Assembly (NCBI RefSeq): GCF_004339015.1
Contig: NZ_SMFQ01000003.1
Location: forward strand, 124,001-188,000
Length of the DNA: 64,000 nt
Reading direction: 5' to 3'
From: Cocleimonas flava
GTDB lineage: Bacteria; Pseudomonadota; Gammaproteobacteria; Thiotrichales; Thiotrichaceae
The position numbers and the translations under genes were made by a program. Below, piece after piece: positions 17,373 through 25,120 of the stretch. Below the pieces are notes generated by a model. The model had not been told where the DNA came from. It worked only from the letters and a program-made list of their open reading frames with translations, and ran no database searches. Position 1 is the first letter of the stretch. Every line of letters begins with the position of its first letter.

Positions 17373-18380
17373 TTAAACAAGTGCAGTAATATCATCTACG
17401 GTCTCTGCCCAGCGAGTAGTATCTAATAAAGCGGAGCGATTCATAAATGGTTCACCCTGCATACGCATCAACCGTTGTGATGACTCTTCACTGTGTTTTA
17501 TTTTTGCGTTGTTTAATACTTCTAATGCGCCCGCACGATTATTGCAAACAAGCACCATGTCACAACCCGCGTCAATGGCAGCTTCGGCGCGTTGCGCGTA
17601 GTTACCCATGACAGAAGCGCCTTCCATGGTTAGGTCATCACTAAAAATTACGCCATCAAAATTTAATTCATCGCGCAGTACTGTTTGTAACCAATACGGT
17701 GAAAAGCCGGCGGGTTTATCATCTATTTCTTTATAAATGACATGCGCTGGCATCACGGCATCCAGTCCCTGTTTAATCAAGTCTGCAAACGGAATGATAT
17801 CTTCCTGCCAGATTTCTTCTCTACTACGCGTATCAACGGGAATTTCATGGTGAGAATCTTCTGTGACAGCGCCATGGCCCGGGAAGTGTTTGCCGGTCGA
17901 TGCCATTCCGGCTTCTCGCATGCCTTTAATGTACTTTGTTGCCAAGGTTGAGATTGTTTTAGGGTTACGGTTGAAAGAACGATCACCGATGACTTCACTC
18001 ACACCAAAATTAACATCAAGAACAGGTGCAAAACTGAAGTCTATGTCCATTGCCCTGACTTCTGCAGCCATTAACCAGCCATGTGAATAAGACTTTTCTT
18101 CAGGGTTTGTTGATTCAGCTAATGTTGCGATTGCTGGTAACGTAGTGAATTCTGTTCTAAATCGTTGTACACGCCCACCCTCATGATCCACACAGATAAG
18201 CAGCGATTTACCTTTTGTTGCCTGGCGTACATCGGCTACCAATCGAGACAATTGTTCTACCGATTCGTAATTTCTACTAAAAAAAATGACTCCACCGACT
18301 AAAGGATGATTTAGTAGTTCTTTTTCTTCGTTTGTTATTTCCAGCCCATCTAAGTCGAGCATTACAGGTGCGATACCCAT
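17373..18380 (-). CDS. nagZ: Beta-N-acetylglucosaminidase NagZ
   Basis: Family 3 glycoside hydrolase of cell-wall recycling. It removes N-acetylglucosamine from cytoplasmic GlcNAc-anhydromuropeptides. The 335-residue protein has the KHFPGHG and EDSHHEIPVDTRS signature loop, whose His acts as general acid/base, and the VIFSDDLTMEGA segment with the nucleophile Asp. There is no signal peptide, as expected for the cytoplasmic enzyme. It appears to be transcribed alone or with the downstream unknown membrane protein gene. Confidence 0.96.
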   Translation of the reverse strand: MGIAPVMLDLDGLEITNEEKELLNHPLVGGVIFFSRNYESVEQLSRLVADVRQATKGKSLLICVDHEGGRVQRFRTEFTTLPAIATLAESTNPEEKSYSHGWLMAAEVRAMDIDFSFAPVLDVNFGVSEVIGDRSFNRNPKTISTLATKYIKGMREAGMASTGKHFPGHGAVTEDSHHEIPVDTRSREEIWQEDIIPFADLIKQGLDAVMPAHVIYKEIDDKPAGFSPYWLQTVLRDELNFDGVIFSDDLTMEGASVMGNYAQRAEAAIDAGCDMVLVCNNRAGALEVLNNAKIKHSEESSQRLMRMQGEPFMNRSALLDTTRWAETVDDITALV

Positions 18381-18697
18381 CGTATTCCCCTTTGTATTTC
18401 TGTGTAGTTCTATGATTTATAGATTTTTACCAGTATACAAAATTAATCTAAATTCTATTAATTATTTATTAGAAGATGTGCATTACTCTGGTTATTGTTT
18501 AGGAAAAGAAAGACCGGTAAATAGGCAAATATGTCGTCTATCCTTGATTAAATAGAGAGTGTATCTCTGAATGGATAGATTGCTTTTTAACGAGAAGTTA
18601 TAGTTGATTTAGCTATATTAGCATATTAGAATATTGATAAATTAGGTTTTGCTACTAATCCCTTATTACTTTCATAATACACGCTAGGAGTTTTAAA
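18381..18697. other. Intergenic region upstream of the sulfur-globule-like gene
   Basis: About 317 AT-rich bases between divergent nagZ and the sulfur-globule-like gene. Apart from the promoter-like pair near 18649-18678, no gene, repeat copy or strong hairpin is seen. Confidence 0.5.
18649..18678 (+). promoter_or_regulatory. Candidate sigma-70 promoter for the sulfur-globule-like gene
   Basis: TTGCTA (18649-18654) and CATAAT (18673-18678) are separated by 18 bases, a plausible -35/-10 pair. An AGGAG ribosome site (18686-18690) sits 7 bases before the ATG, suggesting strong translation, as expected for an abundant structural protein. Confidence 0.45.
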
Positions 18698-19492
18698 ATG
18701 AAATTACGTATCGCTACTTTTGCAGCATTGGTCGCTCTATCAGGAACAGCATCAGCTAACTGGTGGGATGGTTTTAATAATGGAAACGGTTCGGGCAATG
18801 GTTATGGTAATGCCGCTGGAAATACTTCAGGCGCAGGTAATGCAACTGGAAATGCAAATGGTTCTGGTCAAGGATGGGGAACAGGTAAAGGCGACGCTGA
18901 TGGCGAAGTTGATTTCAGCATAAACTTTAAAGGTAAAGGCAAGACTGATATGGATACTGCTGGCAACCTAACAGGTTCTGGTCAAGGCGCAGGTAACACA
19001 GCGGGTAATATGGACGGCGCTGGCAACACTGCTGGCAATATGTATGGTTCTGGTCAAGGCCAAAACAGTGGTAATGGCTACGGTTCTAACATGCCTTGGA
19101 ACAATAATAGCAATATGCCATGGAACAATAACGCAAACATGCCGTGGAATAATAACAACTATGGTGGATACAACGGTTATGCTCCGCAGATGCAAATGCC
19201 GCAACAGCGCATGATGCGTCCTCAAATGCAGCAAATGCCTCAGCAACGTATGATGCCACAAACTCGCATGATGGCTCCTGCTTATGCCGCTCCAAGTTAT
19301 GAGCAAATGCAAGCTCAAATGGAAGCGCAACGTAAGCAATATGAAGCATTTGCCAAGCAAATTGCAGCCCAGCAGAAAGCAATGTCTATAGCGCATCAAA
19401 AAGCGCAAGCTCAACAGAATGCTCAGGCACAGCAAAAAGCACCTGCTGCTGCAACTACTGCACCTGCAGCGCCAGCAGCTAAAGCTGAATAA
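18698..19492 (+). CDS. Secreted Gly/Asn-rich protein, sulfur globule protein-like
   Basis: A 264-residue exported protein. A signal peptide (1-20, ending ASA) is followed by NWWDGFNNGNGSGNG, then Gly/Asn repeats (GSGQG, GNTAGNM). The segment DGEVDFSINFKGKGK recalls the DFSMN block of sulfur globule envelope proteins. Three copies of NMPWNNN, a Met/Gln-rich segment and a Gln/Ala/Pro-rich tail follow. Such proteins coat periplasmic sulfur inclusions in purple sulfur bacteria and filamentous sulfur oxidisers. The assignment rests on composition and the N-terminal pattern, so another cell-surface structural protein is possible. A strong ribosome site and a terminator suggest single-gene, high-level expression. 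Confidence 0.7.
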   Translation: MKLRIATFAALVALSGTASANWWDGFNNGNGSGNGYGNAAGNTSGAGNATGNANGSGQGWGTGKGDADGEVDFSINFKGKGKTDMDTAGNLTGSGQGAGNTAGNMDGAGNTAGNMYGSGQGQNSGNGYGSNMPWNNNSNMPWNNNANMPWNNNNYGGYNGYAPQMQMPQQRMMRPQMQQMPQQRMMPQTRMMAPAYAAPSYEQMQAQMEAQRKQYEAFAKQIAAQQKAMSIAHQKAQAQQNAQAQQKAPAAATTAPAAPAAKAE

Positions 19493-19800
19493 GTGATTAG
19501 TTAAATTGAGTTAAATACAGTTGATCATAGCGAAAGTAAGGCTTTGATCTAACGTATAAGCATAAGCCGCCAAGCAGTGATTGTTTGGCGGCTTTTTTGT
19601 GCCTGAATGAAATAGCATCAGCACTTTATCGGATAATACTTGGACTGATAACTCATTATTTTTATTGGTTTTTGACCGTTGCGCGACACAGATTATCCAC
19701 TTATCGGTGTCTCGGGATATTTATTGAACGGCATCTGTCAGAATAATCGCAACGTAAACTATATGTAAGTATTGTTAATAATAATCATTATAAGGATATT
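19493..19800. other. Intergenic region after the sulfur-globule-like gene
   Basis: About 308 bases holding the terminator at 19565-19597 and otherwise no recognisable element. The part upstream of the DUF805 gene is presumed to contain its promoter. Confidence 0.5.
19565..19597 (+). terminator. Intrinsic terminator of the sulfur-globule-like gene
   Basis: AGCCGCCAA pairs with TTGGCGGCT across a loop of about 12 bases and is followed by T6. It lies about 70 bases after the stop codon. Confidence 0.88.
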
Positions 19801-20334
19801 ATGATGTCTAGGAATTCAAATACTATGAATATGCAATTTGAAAATCATACTTTGCAACGATATAGCGAAGTAGATTTATTTTCCACTGATGGAAGAATAG
19901 GAAGTAAACGCTACTTTCTTTATTCAGTGTTGCTTCCTTTTATAATTTTTTGGAGTCTGGCGAGTATCGCTGGTGTTTTAACCTATATGGGGAGTGCGGC
20001 GACATTAGCATCCTACGCTATTCTGGGTGTAGCCATAATAGCTATGCTGTTCATCCTGGTAAGACTAACCATTCAACGTTGTCATGACTTTAATAAATCA
20101 GGCTGGTTGGCAATATTAGCAGTAGTGCCATTTTCCAATATAATATTTGCGCTTATTCCTGGTACTAACGGTTTAAACCAGTACGGTGAAGTACCAGAAC
20201 CAGCGAATAAATTAACCAATATTCTGTTTTATTTATTGATTGCTGCGTTAACCGCTATGACAGCTTTTTTGCTATATCAGTTATTTAACGGAGATATTAT
20301 TAACTCCGCTATGCAGCGTTGGTTCACGTTCTAA
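19801..20334 (+). CDS. DUF805 family membrane protein
   Basis: A 177-residue integral membrane protein. After about 30 soluble residues (FSTDGRIGSKRYFLYS) there are four hydrophobic segments. The conserved block RCHDFNKSGWLAIL, followed by FALIPGTNGLNQYGEVP, identifies the DUF805 family. The function of the family is not known. The first of two adjacent ATG or Met choices cannot be decided. It is convergent with the RND permease and overlaps it by 11 bases at the 3' ends. Confidence 0.88.
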   Translation: MMSRNSNTMNMQFENHTLQRYSEVDLFSTDGRIGSKRYFLYSVLLPFIIFWSLASIAGVLTYMGSAATLASYAILGVAIIAMLFILVRLTIQRCHDFNKSGWLAILAVVPFSNIIFALIPGTNGLNQYGEVPEPANKLTNILFYLLIAALTAMTAFLLYQLFNGDIINSAMQRWFTF

Positions 20335-23300
20335 TAATATGTAACCGCTTTAGTATTGATTTGAAATCTTCTACGATTAAATAGAAGGTAGGAATCAATA
20401 CTAAAGTAAGCATGGTCGCAAACAGTATCCCAAACCCTAAAGATACAGCCATTGGTATCAAAAACTGTGCTTGAGTACTCTTCTCAAGTATTAGAGGTGT
20501 TAAGCCTGCAAAAGTTGTCAATGAAGTGAGTAGAATAGGTCTAAACCTGGATTGACCAGCAATTCTGATCGCTTCAGCAACCGGAATACCGCTCTTTATT
20601 TTCTTATTGGTATAATCGACCAACACTAAAGAATCATTCACCACCACACCTACAAGTGCTAACAAACCCATAACACTGCTTACACTCAAACTCATTCCCA
20701 TTATTGCGTGACCACCGATAGCTCCGATAATACTAAAAGGTATGATGCTCATCACCATGATTGGCTGAAAATAGGAGCCAAATGGAATTGCCAATAATAT
20801 GTAAATAGCGATTAAAGCTACGGCAAATCCAAACATTAGACTCGAGTTAGATTCTTTTTGCTCTCTTTGCTCCCCTTCCATATCGAAATTTACTCCTGGA
20901 TTATTAGCTAGAATATCCGGGAACCACTCTTTAAAATTAGCAACTACGGCATTCGCAGAGATCTTGTCTTTGTCCAGATCAGCCGTAACATTGATAATAC
21001 GCTGCCTATCAACGCGAGAAATGGTCGACGAGCCTTTGCCAATACTCACTTCTGCAACTTCACTTAATGGAACGGATGCACCTGTAGGTGTACGTATCTT
21101 CAGATTTTGTAATCCGGATAGGGATAACCTTTCTCCCTTTGGTGCTCGAACCATGACTTTTATTTCTGATTGATTACGCTGAATACGTTGTGCCTCAGCA
21201 CCATAAATAGAATTTCTTACTTGCTGCCCTAGCGTTGTTAGATTCAATCCTAACTGCTCGGCAGATGGTTTTATTCTAAGCTGTACTTCAGCTTTTCCAC
21301 CTTCGTAACTGTTTTTAATATCAAACAAACCATCGTATTCACTCAACTTAGCTTTCACTAAAAGCGCAACATCATTAAGTTCATTGAAATCAGTGCCAAT
21401 CAGTTGGACATCGATGGGTTCTCCACCTCTTCCTATTTCTGCTCTGAAACTCAGTTCCTTTACTCCGGGAATTGGACCAATCAGGTCTCGCCATTCTTGC
21501 ACTAATGCTATGGTGCTTATATCGAGTTTTCTCTCTTCAGGAGGGATAGTTTCAAAAGTGATTGTGGCAATATTGGCAACACCACTACTACCGCTAGGTC
21601 TTCGACCGGCACTGCCAACAGTGACTAAAATATGCTTAATGATGCTTTGGCCATGTTTAGCTGTATCTGCGCCAGAGTCATTAATAGATGATAAGTTTTG
21701 GGTTTTATCTGATGATGATTTTGGCATAGGTTCTGACAAAGATTCAGAGCCTTCATCGCTATAAGGCTCGATGTATTTCTTCTGTAATAGTTCTACGCTT
21801 GAAACCATTTTGTTTACGTACTTTTCCGTTATCTCAAGCGAAGTCCCCTCCGGCATCTCGATGGTCGCAGAAACAGTTTCGCTTTCTATACGTGGGAAAA
21901 ATGTGTACTTGTAACGACCCGTTGTGACCATGGTAATGGTAATAATTAATATACTGATAAACACTGTAAGCGTTAAATAGCGTGCGTTAAGACAGGCGTT
22001 TAAGAATGGTGCATATATATTTTTAACGAACCAAACAAGGCTTTGAGCAATCGATCTTTGTATGCGAGTGAAAATATTTAAATTGTCTTTATTTTTACGT
22101 AATTTCATATGACGTAAATGTGAAGGTAAGACGAATTTAGATTCGATCAATGAAAATAACAATACCGGTATGACTACCATTGGAATCTGGGCAAAAATCG
22201 GTCCACGTCTACCTTCCATCATCAACAAAGGTAAAAAGGCAGCAACTGTCGTTAAAACACCAAAAGTAACAGGTACTGCAATTTCTTGTGTTCCCTCTAT
22301 GACCGCTCGTTTCGGGTCACCTGTTTTCTCTAAGTGAGAATAAATATTTTCACCCGTAACAATGGCATCATCGACCACAATACCCAATACCAGTATAAAA
22401 CCGAACATGCTGATGATGTTCATGGTCATACCTAATTGTGGCATCAAGGCTAGAGCGCCAAGAAAGCTGATAGGAATACCCACGCTCACCCAAAAAGCCA
22501 GATCGGGACGTAAAAACAATGCAAGCAACAGCAATACAAGCCCTATTCCTTGAATCAAACTATTCGTCAGTGTGTTTAGACGTGCTTTAACTATTTTAGA
22601 GCTGTCTTGCCAATAGGTTAGATGTAATCCAGGTGGTAATGTTTTATTACGAGCTTCGATATAATCTTTAACAGTATTCGCAAGTTCGATGGCATTTTGG
22701 TCTCCCACGCGAGATATGTTAATAAAAGCAGCTTTCTTGCCATCAAATTCGCTGTATAAAGGGTCTTCATTAAAACCATCATTTATATCGGCAATGTCCC
22801 CCAAACGTATACTGGTGCCATTTTTCTTGCTGATCACTTTAATATTTGCAAAATCATCTTTTTTGTACGCTTGTCCTAATGTTCTAACCAATATGTCCCC
22901 AGACTGGGCTTTAATCGTTCCACCAGGTATGTCTCGAGATGCATTGCTGATAACGTTAGAAATGTCTCCCAAGGTTAAATCATATTGTCTTAAGGTTGAT
23001 TCAGGTACATTGATGCTGATTTCCCAGGGGCGTACACCACCCATGGAAATTTGCGTTATATTGGGTAAACCGCGAATTTCATCGCGAATCTTTTCAGTAT
23101 TACGACGCAAGGCCACTTCATCTAAACTGTCTTGATAAGTGACGACTGTAATTACTGCCCGACTTCGTATCTGTTGTTCTATGACGGGCTGCTCTGCATC
23201 CTCAGGAAAAGAGGTGATACTGTCTACTCTGGACTTTATCTCGTTAAGCAGTTTAGTTACATCGTATTTAGAGAGAATTTCAACTCTGATTGATGCGCTA

Positions 23301-23635
23301 CCTTCGGAAGAATCGCTGTAAATTTTATCTATACCGGGTAAGTCTGCAATTGCATCTTCGACACGAATCGCAATCCCTTCTTCAACTTCTTGAGGGGTAG
23401 CCCCCGGATATGAAATTGAAATATTTACCACATCTGTTTCAAACGAAGGAAACGATTCAAGAGTGATTAACTTTGCACCTGTATAAAGACCAGTAACGAT
23501 GATAGTAATCATCAATATATTTGCTGCTACCGGATTGTTTACAAACCACGCAATGATGCCTTTTGATTGGGTGCTGTCAAAGGGCTCTGAGGCGTTGTTA
23601 TTTATGTCATTAATGTCTGACGAATTGGTATTCAT
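20324..23635 (-). CDS. RND-family efflux permease
   Basis: Proton-driven inner-membrane pump subunit of a tripartite efflux system. The 1103-residue protein has twelve membrane segments in the usual two halves. The GIVVDDAIVTGENIY segment of TM4 carries the paired Asp proton-relay residues. The second half shows VGVVVNDSLVLVDY and RFRPILLTSLTTFAGL. A Ser/Asp/Glu-rich insertion (about residues 610-660) interrupts the second periplasmic porter region. The start codon directly abuts the stop of the adaptor gene, indicating coupled translation. The substrate cannot be predicted and no outer-membrane channel gene accompanies the pair. Confidence 0.94.
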   Translation of the reverse strand: MNTNSSDINDINNNASEPFDSTQSKGIIAWFVNNPVAANILMITIIVTGLYTGAKLITLESFPSFETDVVNISISYPGATPQEVEEGIAIRVEDAIADLPGIDKIYSDSSEGSASIRVEILSKYDVTKLLNEIKSRVDSITSFPEDAEQPVIEQQIRSRAVITVVTYQDSLDEVALRRNTEKIRDEIRGLPNITQISMGGVRPWEISINVPESTLRQYDLTLGDISNVISNASRDIPGGTIKAQSGDILVRTLGQAYKKDDFANIKVISKKNGTSIRLGDIADINDGFNEDPLYSEFDGKKAAFINISRVGDQNAIELANTVKDYIEARNKTLPPGLHLTYWQDSSKIVKARLNTLTNSLIQGIGLVLLLLALFLRPDLAFWVSVGIPISFLGALALMPQLGMTMNIISMFGFILVLGIVVDDAIVTGENIYSHLEKTGDPKRAVIEGTQEIAVPVTFGVLTTVAAFLPLLMMEGRRGPIFAQIPMVVIPVLLFSLIESKFVLPSHLRHMKLRKNKDNLNIFTRIQRSIAQSLVWFVKNIYAPFLNACLNARYLTLTVFISILIITITMVTTGRYKYTFFPRIESETVSATIEMPEGTSLEITEKYVNKMVSSVELLQKKYIEPYSDEGSESLSEPMPKSSSDKTQNLSSINDSGADTAKHGQSIIKHILVTVGSAGRRPSGSSGVANIATITFETIPPEERKLDISTIALVQEWRDLIGPIPGVKELSFRAEIGRGGEPIDVQLIGTDFNELNDVALLVKAKLSEYDGLFDIKNSYEGGKAEVQLRIKPSAEQLGLNLTTLGQQVRNSIYGAEAQRIQRNQSEIKVMVRAPKGERLSLSGLQNLKIRTPTGASVPLSEVAEVSIGKGSSTISRVDRQRIINVTADLDKDKISANAVVANFKEWFPDILANNPGVNFDMEGEQREQKESNSSLMFGFAVALIAIYILLAIPFGSYFQPIMVMSIIPFSIIGAIGGHAIMGMSLSVSSVMGLLALVGVVVNDSLVLVDYTNKKIKSGIPVAEAIRIAGQSRFRPILLTSLTTFAGLTPLILEKSTQAQFLIPMAVSLGFGILFATMLTLVLIPTFYLIVEDFKSILKRLHIIRT

Positions 23636-25120
23636 TTAACTGTTTTCGCCTTTGTTTGTTTGTTTTTTTGATTTTAATTCGTCATTAACTTTGTTGGTTC
23701 TTTCGACTTTTTCTGCTCGTTCTCTCTTTTCTGTGCCTTTTTTTTGGTCAGTAGCACCTCTTTGGCCAGTAACATCTTTCTTACCCGTTCCCTCTCTATT
23801 ACCTCTTTTCTTATTCGAGGCCTTTTCCTTATTTAATGCTTGTTGTGCTTCTAAGGTAATCACTTCCATACCATCAACAACTTGCGGTAAATTAGTTGTA
23901 ATTACCTGTTTACCGATAAAGGTTGGGTCTGCTTCAACGACTGTCTCAGTATTGGAGTTCCATAGCACTTTTACGGGAATAATAGAGAGCTTCCCATCTT
24001 CTAAAATACGAATTTCACGATTATAAATAACGGCAATTGACGGGAGGATAAAGACGTTCTTAAATGTTTTACCTTTAATCGTGGCTTTTAAATACTGCCC
24101 AATACGGATAGGAGTAGTAACACCTTCTTTCGCTTCATAAGGATTATCCACCCTTGCAATGACGTTTATTTGTCGACTTTCTGCATCTAGAGCAGCACTG
24201 GTTCTATCTACATAACCTTTCCATTGATCATTTTTGAGGCTGTCTGGACTTGAGAAAGTGACGCTTGGTAAGGTCTTTTTATCAATACGTTGATTGCGGA
24301 ATGCTTCAGGCATATCCAGTAATTCATATTGGTTTAATGATAACGGTAACTCAACATTGACATAATCAGTGGCGTATATTTCGCCTAATACAGTGCCAAC
24401 GGAAACATACTGTCCCACGTTGACATTTTTCGATAAGACTCTGCCGCTATAAGGCGCTTTAAGTTTTGTGCGAGAGAGATTCAATTCGACTTGTTTTAAG
24501 TTAGCTTTCCTTGAATTAATATTCGCTTGAATGGCGTTTATCTTACTTTCATAGGTTGTTTGTAAGCCATTGAGATTCTGCAATGATTGTTCGAGCTGAT
24601 TGATTTTCTGGTCTTCCGCGTCAACTAATGAACGAGAGATCAGTTTCTTACTCAACAAGGTATTTACACGATTGAACTCTTTCTTACCTAAAGCTAAATT
24701 CTGTTGAGCGAGCTGAATAGACCTTTTATTGCTTTTTTCTTCAGCGATTAATTGTTTCAGGCTTGCCTCATTGGCAGCAACTTCGCTTTTTGCAATTTCT
24801 AATGCATTCTTATAATTAGATTGATCGATTTCTAGTAAAATCTGGTTTTTGTCAAAGTAATTACCTTCTAAGAAATTGTCAGATATACGAATAATTCGAC
24901 CAGCAGCCTCAGCGACTAGATTCGTTTGAGTGCCTGCGGTCACAGTGCCTGATGCTTCAATATTGACAGTGTATTCAGTATTTTTTAGCGTTTGAACTTC
25001 AACAACAGGTAAGCTTCTGACAACGGGACGTTTTCTCGCTTCTGGGGCAGTTTCTTTTAAATATTGAGTGTAGGTAAACGCTGCCGCAAGAACCAGAATT
25101 GGTAAAATTATTTTTAACAT
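23636..25120 (-). CDS. RND efflux periplasmic adaptor (membrane fusion protein)
   Basis: Periplasmic adaptor that links the RND pump to an outer-membrane channel. It has an N-terminal membrane anchor or signal (residues 1-20), a lipoyl-like half-motif (GTVTAGTQTNLVAEAAGRI), a coiled-coil hairpin (about 110-210) and the second half-motif (LKAPYSGRVLSKNVNVGQYV). Beta-barrel domains follow. After residue 420 comes an unusual tail of about 70 residues, very rich in Lys, Arg, Glu and Gly and lacking hydrophobic positions. The stop codon is immediately followed by the permease ATG. Confidence 0.93.
   Translation of the reverse strand: MLKIILPILVLAAAFTYTQYLKETAPEARKRPVVRSLPVVEVQTLKNTEYTVNIEASGTVTAGTQTNLVAEAAGRIIRISDNFLEGNYFDKNQILLEIDQSNYKNALEIAKSEVAANEASLKQLIAEEKSNKRSIQLAQQNLALGKKEFNRVNTLLSKKLISRSLVDAEDQKINQLEQSLQNLNGLQTTYESKINAIQANINSRKANLKQVELNLSRTKLKAPYSGRVLSKNVNVGQYVSVGTVLGEIYATDYVNVELPLSLNQYELLDMPEAFRNQRIDKKTLPSVTFSSPDSLKNDQWKGYVDRTSAALDAESRQINVIARVDNPYEAKEGVTTPIRIGQYLKATIKGKTFKNVFILPSIAVIYNREIRILEDGKLSIIPVKVLWNSNTETVVEADPTFIGKQVITTNLPQVVDGMEVITLEAQQALNKEKASNKKRGNREGTGKKDVTGQRGATDQKKGTEKRERAEKVERTNKVNDELKSKKQTNKGENS

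Follow-up and report, generated by a model that had tools for sequence, protein, structure and literature searches.

A probable, divergent sulfur-globule envelope protein gene of Thiotrichaceae and a promoter motif common to its family

Described sulfur-globule proteins and the gene at 18698-19492

Bacteria can hold solid sulfur within shells made of protein, the sulfur-globule coats. The Pfam model PF17228 (Sulphur globule protein) is a model which we take to represent SgpA, SgpB and SgpC of purple sulfur bacteria. According to PMC10386293, the SgpA-C proteins of Allochromatium vinosum are extremely hydrophobic. SgpD, which localises to the globules and is not essential, has a signal peptide and a possible coiled-coil part and is encoded next to a hydrophobic/amphiphilic exporter gene (PMC10386293). 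The same paper, quoting an earlier review, gives six as the number of predicted sgp genes in Thiothrix caldifontis. In Beggiatoa leptomitoformis, expression of a 15-kDa globule protein, ALG67575.1, is increased 10-fold with thiosulfate, and the protein was judged crucial for globule formation by its authors (PMC7356093).

The window, i.e. the whole stretch of 64,000 nucleotides analysed here, carries a real ORF on the plus strand at 18698-19492 (264 amino acids from an ATG start, with the stop codon counted in the end coordinate). This is where the first-pass annotation had placed it, and the export signal, Gly/Asn repeats, DFSINF segment, three NMPWNNN units and Met/Gln-rich tail listed there are all present in the translation. 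We consider it very probable that the gene encodes a divergent sulfur-globule (Sgp-type) envelope protein. This reading, made from sequence comparison, is based on a signal peptide, the absence of cysteine, predicted disorder, membership in a multi-copy family of sulfur oxidizers and a profile link to PF17228. The features of the gene are:

18686-18690, plus strand: Shine-Dalgarno sequence AGGAG, seen in the sequence 7 nt before the ATG
18698-19492, plus strand: probable sulfur-globule-type envelope protein gene, 264 amino acids, from family matches, alignment and shuffle controls
18698-18757, plus strand: Sec-type signal peptide, residues 1-20, ending ASA/NWW, from sequence inspection
18872-18958, plus strand: conserved core, residues 59-87, GWGTGKGDADGEVDFSINFKGKGKTDMDT, from the alignment of 38 sequences
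19088-19159, plus strand: three NMPWNNN repeats, residues 131-154, from the translation
19298-19432, plus strand: predicted long tail helix, residues 201-245, from AlphaFold2 (block pLDDT 81-97)
19564-19594, plus strand: intrinsic terminator, a 14-pair stem followed by T's

The signal peptide, MKLRIATFAALVALSGTASA, was assigned by eye without a dedicated predictor; it is retained throughout an alignment of 38 family sequences, in which A20 is invariant. In the same alignment the core reads GWGxGKGDADGEVDFSINFKGKGKTDM, with G61, A67, D68, G81 and T83 invariant. The number of PWNNN units differs from copy to copy, with three in the window protein, eight in its paralog L003 and none in its paralog L002. 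AlphaFold2, run on the 38-row alignment, returned a mean pLDDT of 52.5 with 160 of 264 residues below 50, the tail helix being the exception in a model of low confidence. The mature part consists of 16% Ala, 15% Gly, 13.5% Asn, 12% Gln and 8% Met; it contains no cysteine and just five residues of Val, Leu and Ile together. Freedom from cysteine after residue 25 is a property of 49/50 family ORFs as compared to 70/303 control ORFs of 180-300 amino acids. Concerning expression signals, the AGGAG site and the strong terminator that had been proposed were both recovered, and the extended sequence CTAGGAG is enriched ahead of related genes (19/50 versus 4/324 controls).

With the PF17228 proteins the window protein shares predicted export, a Gly/Tyr/Asn-rich composition, a short DFNMxF-like core with basic Gly repeats behind it, and the lack of cysteine, which was seen in all 13 relatives checked; the mature SgpA-C proteins are not known to contain cysteine either. 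It differs from them in being undetected by the model, in being longer than many of them, in the KTDM that follows its core, and in its PWNNN repeats and helical tail. The extreme hydrophobicity given for SgpA-C (PMC10386293) is not found in the window protein, in which Asn, Gln, Gly and Ala abound and aliphatic residues are few. By the description of SgpD in that same paper, a signal peptide, a possible coiled coil and an RND exporter, here two genes off, are points of likeness; however, the exporter gene does not adjoin sgp genes constantly. Like the window protein, ALG67575.1 is described as carrying a signal peptide and lacking any marked conserved domain; the Beggiatoa protein, though, has regularly spaced prolines. 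Likeness to the Thiothrix sgp genes lies in the signal peptide, the conserved core and the multi-copy habit. Our family profile matches six places in T. caldifontis, which agrees in number with the published count of predicted sgp genes. The window gene, however, belongs to another genus.

The Met/Gln-rich tail had been suggested to mark a distinct variant. Among 13 sulfur-globule relatives that lie outside the family, however, five (L099, L101, L106, L108 and L115) have tails resembling it, rich in Gln, Ala, Met and Lys, and we therefore regard the tail as a recurring form.

Family, link to PF17228 and sulfur oxidation

The host genome (4.49 Mb in 10 contigs) has three family copies, namely the window gene, L002 (193 amino acids) and L003 (249 amino acids). 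A further 38 family loci lie in genomes named as Thiothrix, Cocleimonas or Thiotrichaceae, in unplaced gammaproteobacterial MAGs and in one contig labelled Aquificaceae, so that the homologues anticipated in Thiothrix were indeed found, as were others in Cocleimonas and further Thiotrichaceae. Of the 38 loci, 35 were aligned with the window protein and its two own-genome paralogs, which makes up the alignment of 38 sequences; L037 and L039 (broken frames) and L040 (no signal peptide from the start codon initially assigned) were left out. The family profile was built from the N-terminal 117 positions of 34 of the 38 rows (minus L025, L032, L034 and L041). It matches 50 of the 63 genomes of the order that were covered. 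Class-wide it matches 82/369 genomes at E <=0.1, many of these doubtless by chance, and 34 at E <=1e-5. A tree was built from 49 family proteins, without L068 because of its masked letters, and was used solely for the pairing of own-genome copies. Each own-genome copy pairs there with one from a Cocleimonas genome; the three copies thus predate the split of those two genomes.

Some individual loci deserve mention. The contig labelled Aquificaceae (L022:6001-6702) bears a Thiotrichaceae-type sgp gene with the promoter motif described below and is probably misbinned. An sgp-family gene is located on plasmid pTfr153 of Thiothrix fructosivorans (L028:6001-6375), and a T. fructosivorans plasmid record of matching size annotates an sgp-family match as hypothetical protein. 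In Ca. Thiothrix singaporensis the reading frame is broken soon after the signal (L037) or within the core (L039), by sequencing error or decay.

The window protein matches no Pfam family at E <=1 and thus does not reach the PF17228 gathering score of 26.7 bits; the best PF17228 match in its genome is the paralog L002 with 19.9 of the 26.7 bits required, and NCBIfam holds no sulfur-globule model that matches the window protein or nine class-level relatives. These nine, chosen for cleanly readable ORFs, all match PF17228 at E <=0.1, six of them above the gathering score (L096, L099, L107, L115, L120 and L121) and three below it (L101, L106 and L108). A direct PF17228 search of the order gave matches in 23/63 genomes at E <=0.01, with 12 above the cut-off. 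Several of the places found are the same ORFs as family-profile matches, e.g. L126 at 32.4 bits, which is the same protein as one of the T. caldifontis copies. The tie of the window protein to the Sgp proteins of A. vinosum runs through relatives and the Pfam model. While 50/63 genomes of the order have the family, just 12 have a PF17228 match above the cut-off; members that PF17228 misses could be named by means of the family's core and profile.

Aligned by hhalign against 13 class-level relatives, the family profile reached a probability of 99.3 (E 9.6e-21), the shared part being the signal region and the core DGxFxMxFKGxG (aligned as DGxFxMxFKGxGRG). A profile of these 13 other sulfur-globule-type proteins scores the window protein at 60.2 bits, as compared to maxima of 12.1 bits (global) and 3.4 bits (local, which keeps composition within 15-residue blocks) in 1000 shuffles each. 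When the signal peptide is removed, the score is 35.5 bits versus shuffle maxima of -4.0 and -9.7. The real score was thus reached by 0/1000 composition-keeping shuffles in each of four tests and by 0/200 for each of the 13 relatives. The 13 relatives were found via the family profile and picked for cleanly readable ORFs, so that these scores are not fully independent and the shuffles exclude composition, not selection. What is independent is the recognition of such relatives, and of a number of family members, by PF17228 above its cut-off.

A sulfur-globule protein leads one to look for sulfur-oxidation genes in the same genome, and these are present. The host genome has dsrA (E 2.3e-177, above the curated cut-off), adjoined by dsrB (likewise above its curated cut-off) and a dsrE-type gene, as well as soxB (702.7 bits versus a cut-off of 550, with neighbours in frame included in the score) and one sqr-like gene (E 2.7e-160). 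For the sqr-like query, from T. fructosivorans, the best model is that of type III SQR, but the score lies under the cut-off of that model. Among genomes of the order, dsrA is strongly matched (E <1e-80) in 41/50 with the family and in 4/13 without it (Fisher p 7.5e-4, such p-values being indicative only, since the genomes are related and no independent samples); when genomes were restricted to those >=90% complete and <=5% contaminated, the figures were 37/40 and 1/6. In the class, dsrA is present in 29/34 genomes with the family (E <=1e-5) versus 88/335 others, and it is present in 49/55 genomes having PF17228 at E <=0.001. Five class genomes (G283, G302, G361, G363 and G380) have the family and no dsrA match.

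Gene neighbourhood and alternative readings of the protein

Upstream of the sgp gene, and divergent from it, lies the following gene:

17373-18380, minus strand: glycoside hydrolase family 3 gene (nagZ-like), from PF00933

It is a conserved neighbour: by tblastn, 12 other distinct loci likewise have a nagZ-like gene adjoining their sgp gene (L004, L005, L006, L007, L014, L020, L060, L062, L063, L068, L071 and L094), and none was found at L055, L059 or L084; the count spans all loci, many of which are duplicates or have just 1.5 kb of flank. The tail is present in 9/9 nagZ-linked copies read, a count that excludes L060, L063 and L068, the tail of the last being masked. At 20324-25120 the window has RND exporter and membrane-fusion genes, the exporter being two genes from the sgp gene. 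Several loci are too short to show this pair; it is absent at L004 and L020, both of which have >5 kb downstream, and weak RND homologues (22-38% identity) lie near L029/L081 and L100. Exporter linkage of the kind described for SgpD was looked for but is not used as evidence here.

Two other readings of the protein have to be weighed against that of a sulfur-globule coat. It might be a secreted Gly-rich matrix protein, or a sheath or holdfast protein of filamentous Thiotrichaceae with no tie to sulfur grains, whose likeness to Sgp is compositional. Low-complexity composition, predicted disorder, the lack of a Pfam match for the window protein and the existence of four genomes of the order with dsrA and without the family (G008, G009, G010 and G029) would all agree with this. 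On the other hand, the similarity depends on residue order and withstands composition-preserving shuffles, family members pass PF17228, and the family co-occurs with dsrA. In addition, genus g4 of the same bacterial family lacks the protein in 7/7 genomes and has a strong dsrA match in 1/7. We therefore judge a matrix or sheath function improbable. Still less credible, in our estimation, is a coat for another periplasmic inclusion or a scaffold that binds metal or polysulfide by means of its Met/Gln-rich tail: the 13 Met in the tail region of the window protein and the nearby RND efflux pump and membrane-fusion genes would suit it, but the tail is variable or missing among relatives, and the close RND pair adjoins the sgp gene in only two other distinct loci, L005 and L006. 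The sulfur-globule envelope, as proposed by the first-pass annotation, is thus the reading we retain; it is supported by the family in Thiotrichaceae and by distant homologues that pass PF17228, even though the window protein itself misses this model.

As an envelope protein of sulfur globules, the product of 18698-19492 would be exported by Sec to the periplasm, where the Gly/Asn/Trp/Tyr-rich region with its DFSINF-KGKGKTD core may self-assemble, together with the paralogs, into the coat of sulfur grains. Such grains would arise from the chemistry of Sqr and Sox and be consumed afterwards through rDsr. The helical Gln/Ala/Met tail could hold subunits to one another by coiled-coil contacts, or bind them to the grain, and the absence of cysteine might keep the coat from reacting with polysulfide. 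A regulator site common to the promoters of sgp-family genes would cause coat proteins to be made when reduced sulfur is available. Regulation by reduced sulfur and a coat function find support in the B. leptomitoformis (PMC7356093) and SgpD (PMC10386293) papers.

A promoter motif common to sgp-family genes

The protein type is already known, and such genes have earlier been counted in Thiothrix; the new element is a promoter motif that sgp genes share. At the window gene it is represented by two features:

18604-18632, plus strand: promoter TTGATT-N17-TAGAAT, within a block that is conserved when five related upstream regions are aligned
18615-18630, plus strand: putative regulator site ATATTAGCATATTAGA inside the promoter spacer, made up of two ATATTAG units, from motif enrichment

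The promoter had been called clear. Conservation bears this out, as the block is retained, with changes, in four related upstream regions, but a consensus promoter scan of both strands lends no support of its own, with 4 promoter-like sites as compared to 4.2 expected in shuffles and hence not above chance. At <=1 mismatch, ATATTAGCATATTAGA has a single match in the whole own genome, as has the backwards control pattern; the other two own-genome copies, L002 and L003, have AGTATATTAGTATA as their site.

Among 50 distinct Thiotrichaceae family ORFs, 40 have the 7-mer ATATTAG/CTAATAT within 150 nt upstream, in or beside the -35/-10 spacer, as do 17/324 other ORFs of the same loci; in 500 shuffles the mean was 3.3 and the maximum 10. 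The dyad ATTAG-N5..7-CTAAT occurs in 21/50 family upstream regions (shuffle mean 0.1, maximum 2) and in 7/324 controls, six of which are copies of the sgp promoter. A sigma-70-like pattern with a 17-nt spacer, composed after the sequences had been seen, was found in 29/50 family regions versus 10/324 controls (shuffle mean 1.8) and, with the motif inside, in 26/50 versus 2/324 (shuffle mean 0.07). In Thiothrix the common form is TTTACA-TTAGAAAACTCTAATAT-TATGAT. There the motif is often a dyad, TTTACA-TTAGA-N4-TCTAATAT-TATnAT, which spans the entire spacer, and the stretch can also be written TTTACATTAGA-N4-TCTAATAT. We infer from these sequences that a common putative regulator acts on sgp-family promoters.

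A 24-nt Thiothrix pattern was searched in 11 genomes with <=2 mismatches. It gave 27 matches in seven Thiothrix-group genomes, where the reversed pattern gave 1. Elsewhere there was one match each in G037 and G044 and two in G011, the same number as the reversed control of G011; the window genome had none. The sgp-family genes are preceded by 21/27 of the Thiothrix-group matches, including all 20 at <=1 mismatch. Since the pattern was drawn from sgp promoters, its specificity and not its presence is the evidence.

Outside Thiotrichaceae, 7/13 class-level relatives have the motif. Having been discovered in the Thiotrichaceae set, it was then tested on a class set of 80 further PF17228/family regions, from which L242 and L257 were dropped for want of a start codon. 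It is present in 24 of the 79 usable upstream regions (mean 3.7 and maximum 8 in 300 shuffles) and is the second most enriched 7-mer behind a ribosome-binding sequence. In controls from 20 of the same genomes it was seen in 5/250 upstream, 3/152 intergenic and 3/57 AT-rich intergenic regions. These class data support a putative class-wide site for sgp promoters.

It may be that one ancient sulfur-responsive regulator, binding ATATTAG/CTAATAT in or beside the spacer, controls the sgp genes across the Gammaproteobacteria, dispersed and multiplied as they are, as one regulon, in Thiothrix perhaps including sqr-like genes. We put this forward tentatively, as a proposal that could equally turn out either way. 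The motif might instead simply result from the AT-rich -10 boxes of strong sigma-70 promoters, in which CTAA precedes TATACT or TATTAT, and would then be no regulator site; this we regard as rather unlikely. In keeping with such a by-product of base composition, the motif abuts the -10 box in many class genes, is carried by 12/87 AT-rich Thiotrichaceae controls and is lacking in 10/50 Thiotrichaceae and 55/79 class genes; nor was it found in the own-genome sqr-like, dsr (L176) and sox (L177) regions when these were searched for it. Against a by-product of this kind speaks the excess of the motif over AT-rich intergenic controls in the class (Fisher p 1.6e-4). Moreover, of the 17 Thiotrichaceae controls that carry the motif, 8 are in fact the sgp promoter viewed from the neighbouring gene, and the Thiothrix dyad fills the whole spacer, its 20 closest matches in seven genomes all preceding sgp genes. 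Our searches of open-access literature (including passages of PMC12423496, PMC9995734, PMC10609205 and PMC9455678) showed no operator sequence for sgp genes and no shared sgp promoter site. The site could be matched to no known regulator, passages of PMC12423496 giving no operator sequence and a term search of PMC10451225 giving no match. As a site shared by these promoters, the motif offers a direct route to the regulator coupling sulfur supply to coat synthesis.

Regarding sqr-like genes, the 7-mer lies within about 620 nt upstream in 8/15 loci. In six of them (L164, L166, L167, L173, L174 and L175), all Thiothrix-group orthologues, it stands at the same place, -153 or -154, and these six copies may represent one inherited event. 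The arrangement hints at a possible common control of sulfide oxidation and globule coats in the Thiothrix group. Among the six matches of the 24-nt pattern that do not precede sgp-family genes, one, at L155/L178 (L178:940-2782), precedes a LysR-type HTH fragment together with an sqr-like gene, and another precedes two DUF302-type genes (L160, genome G053).
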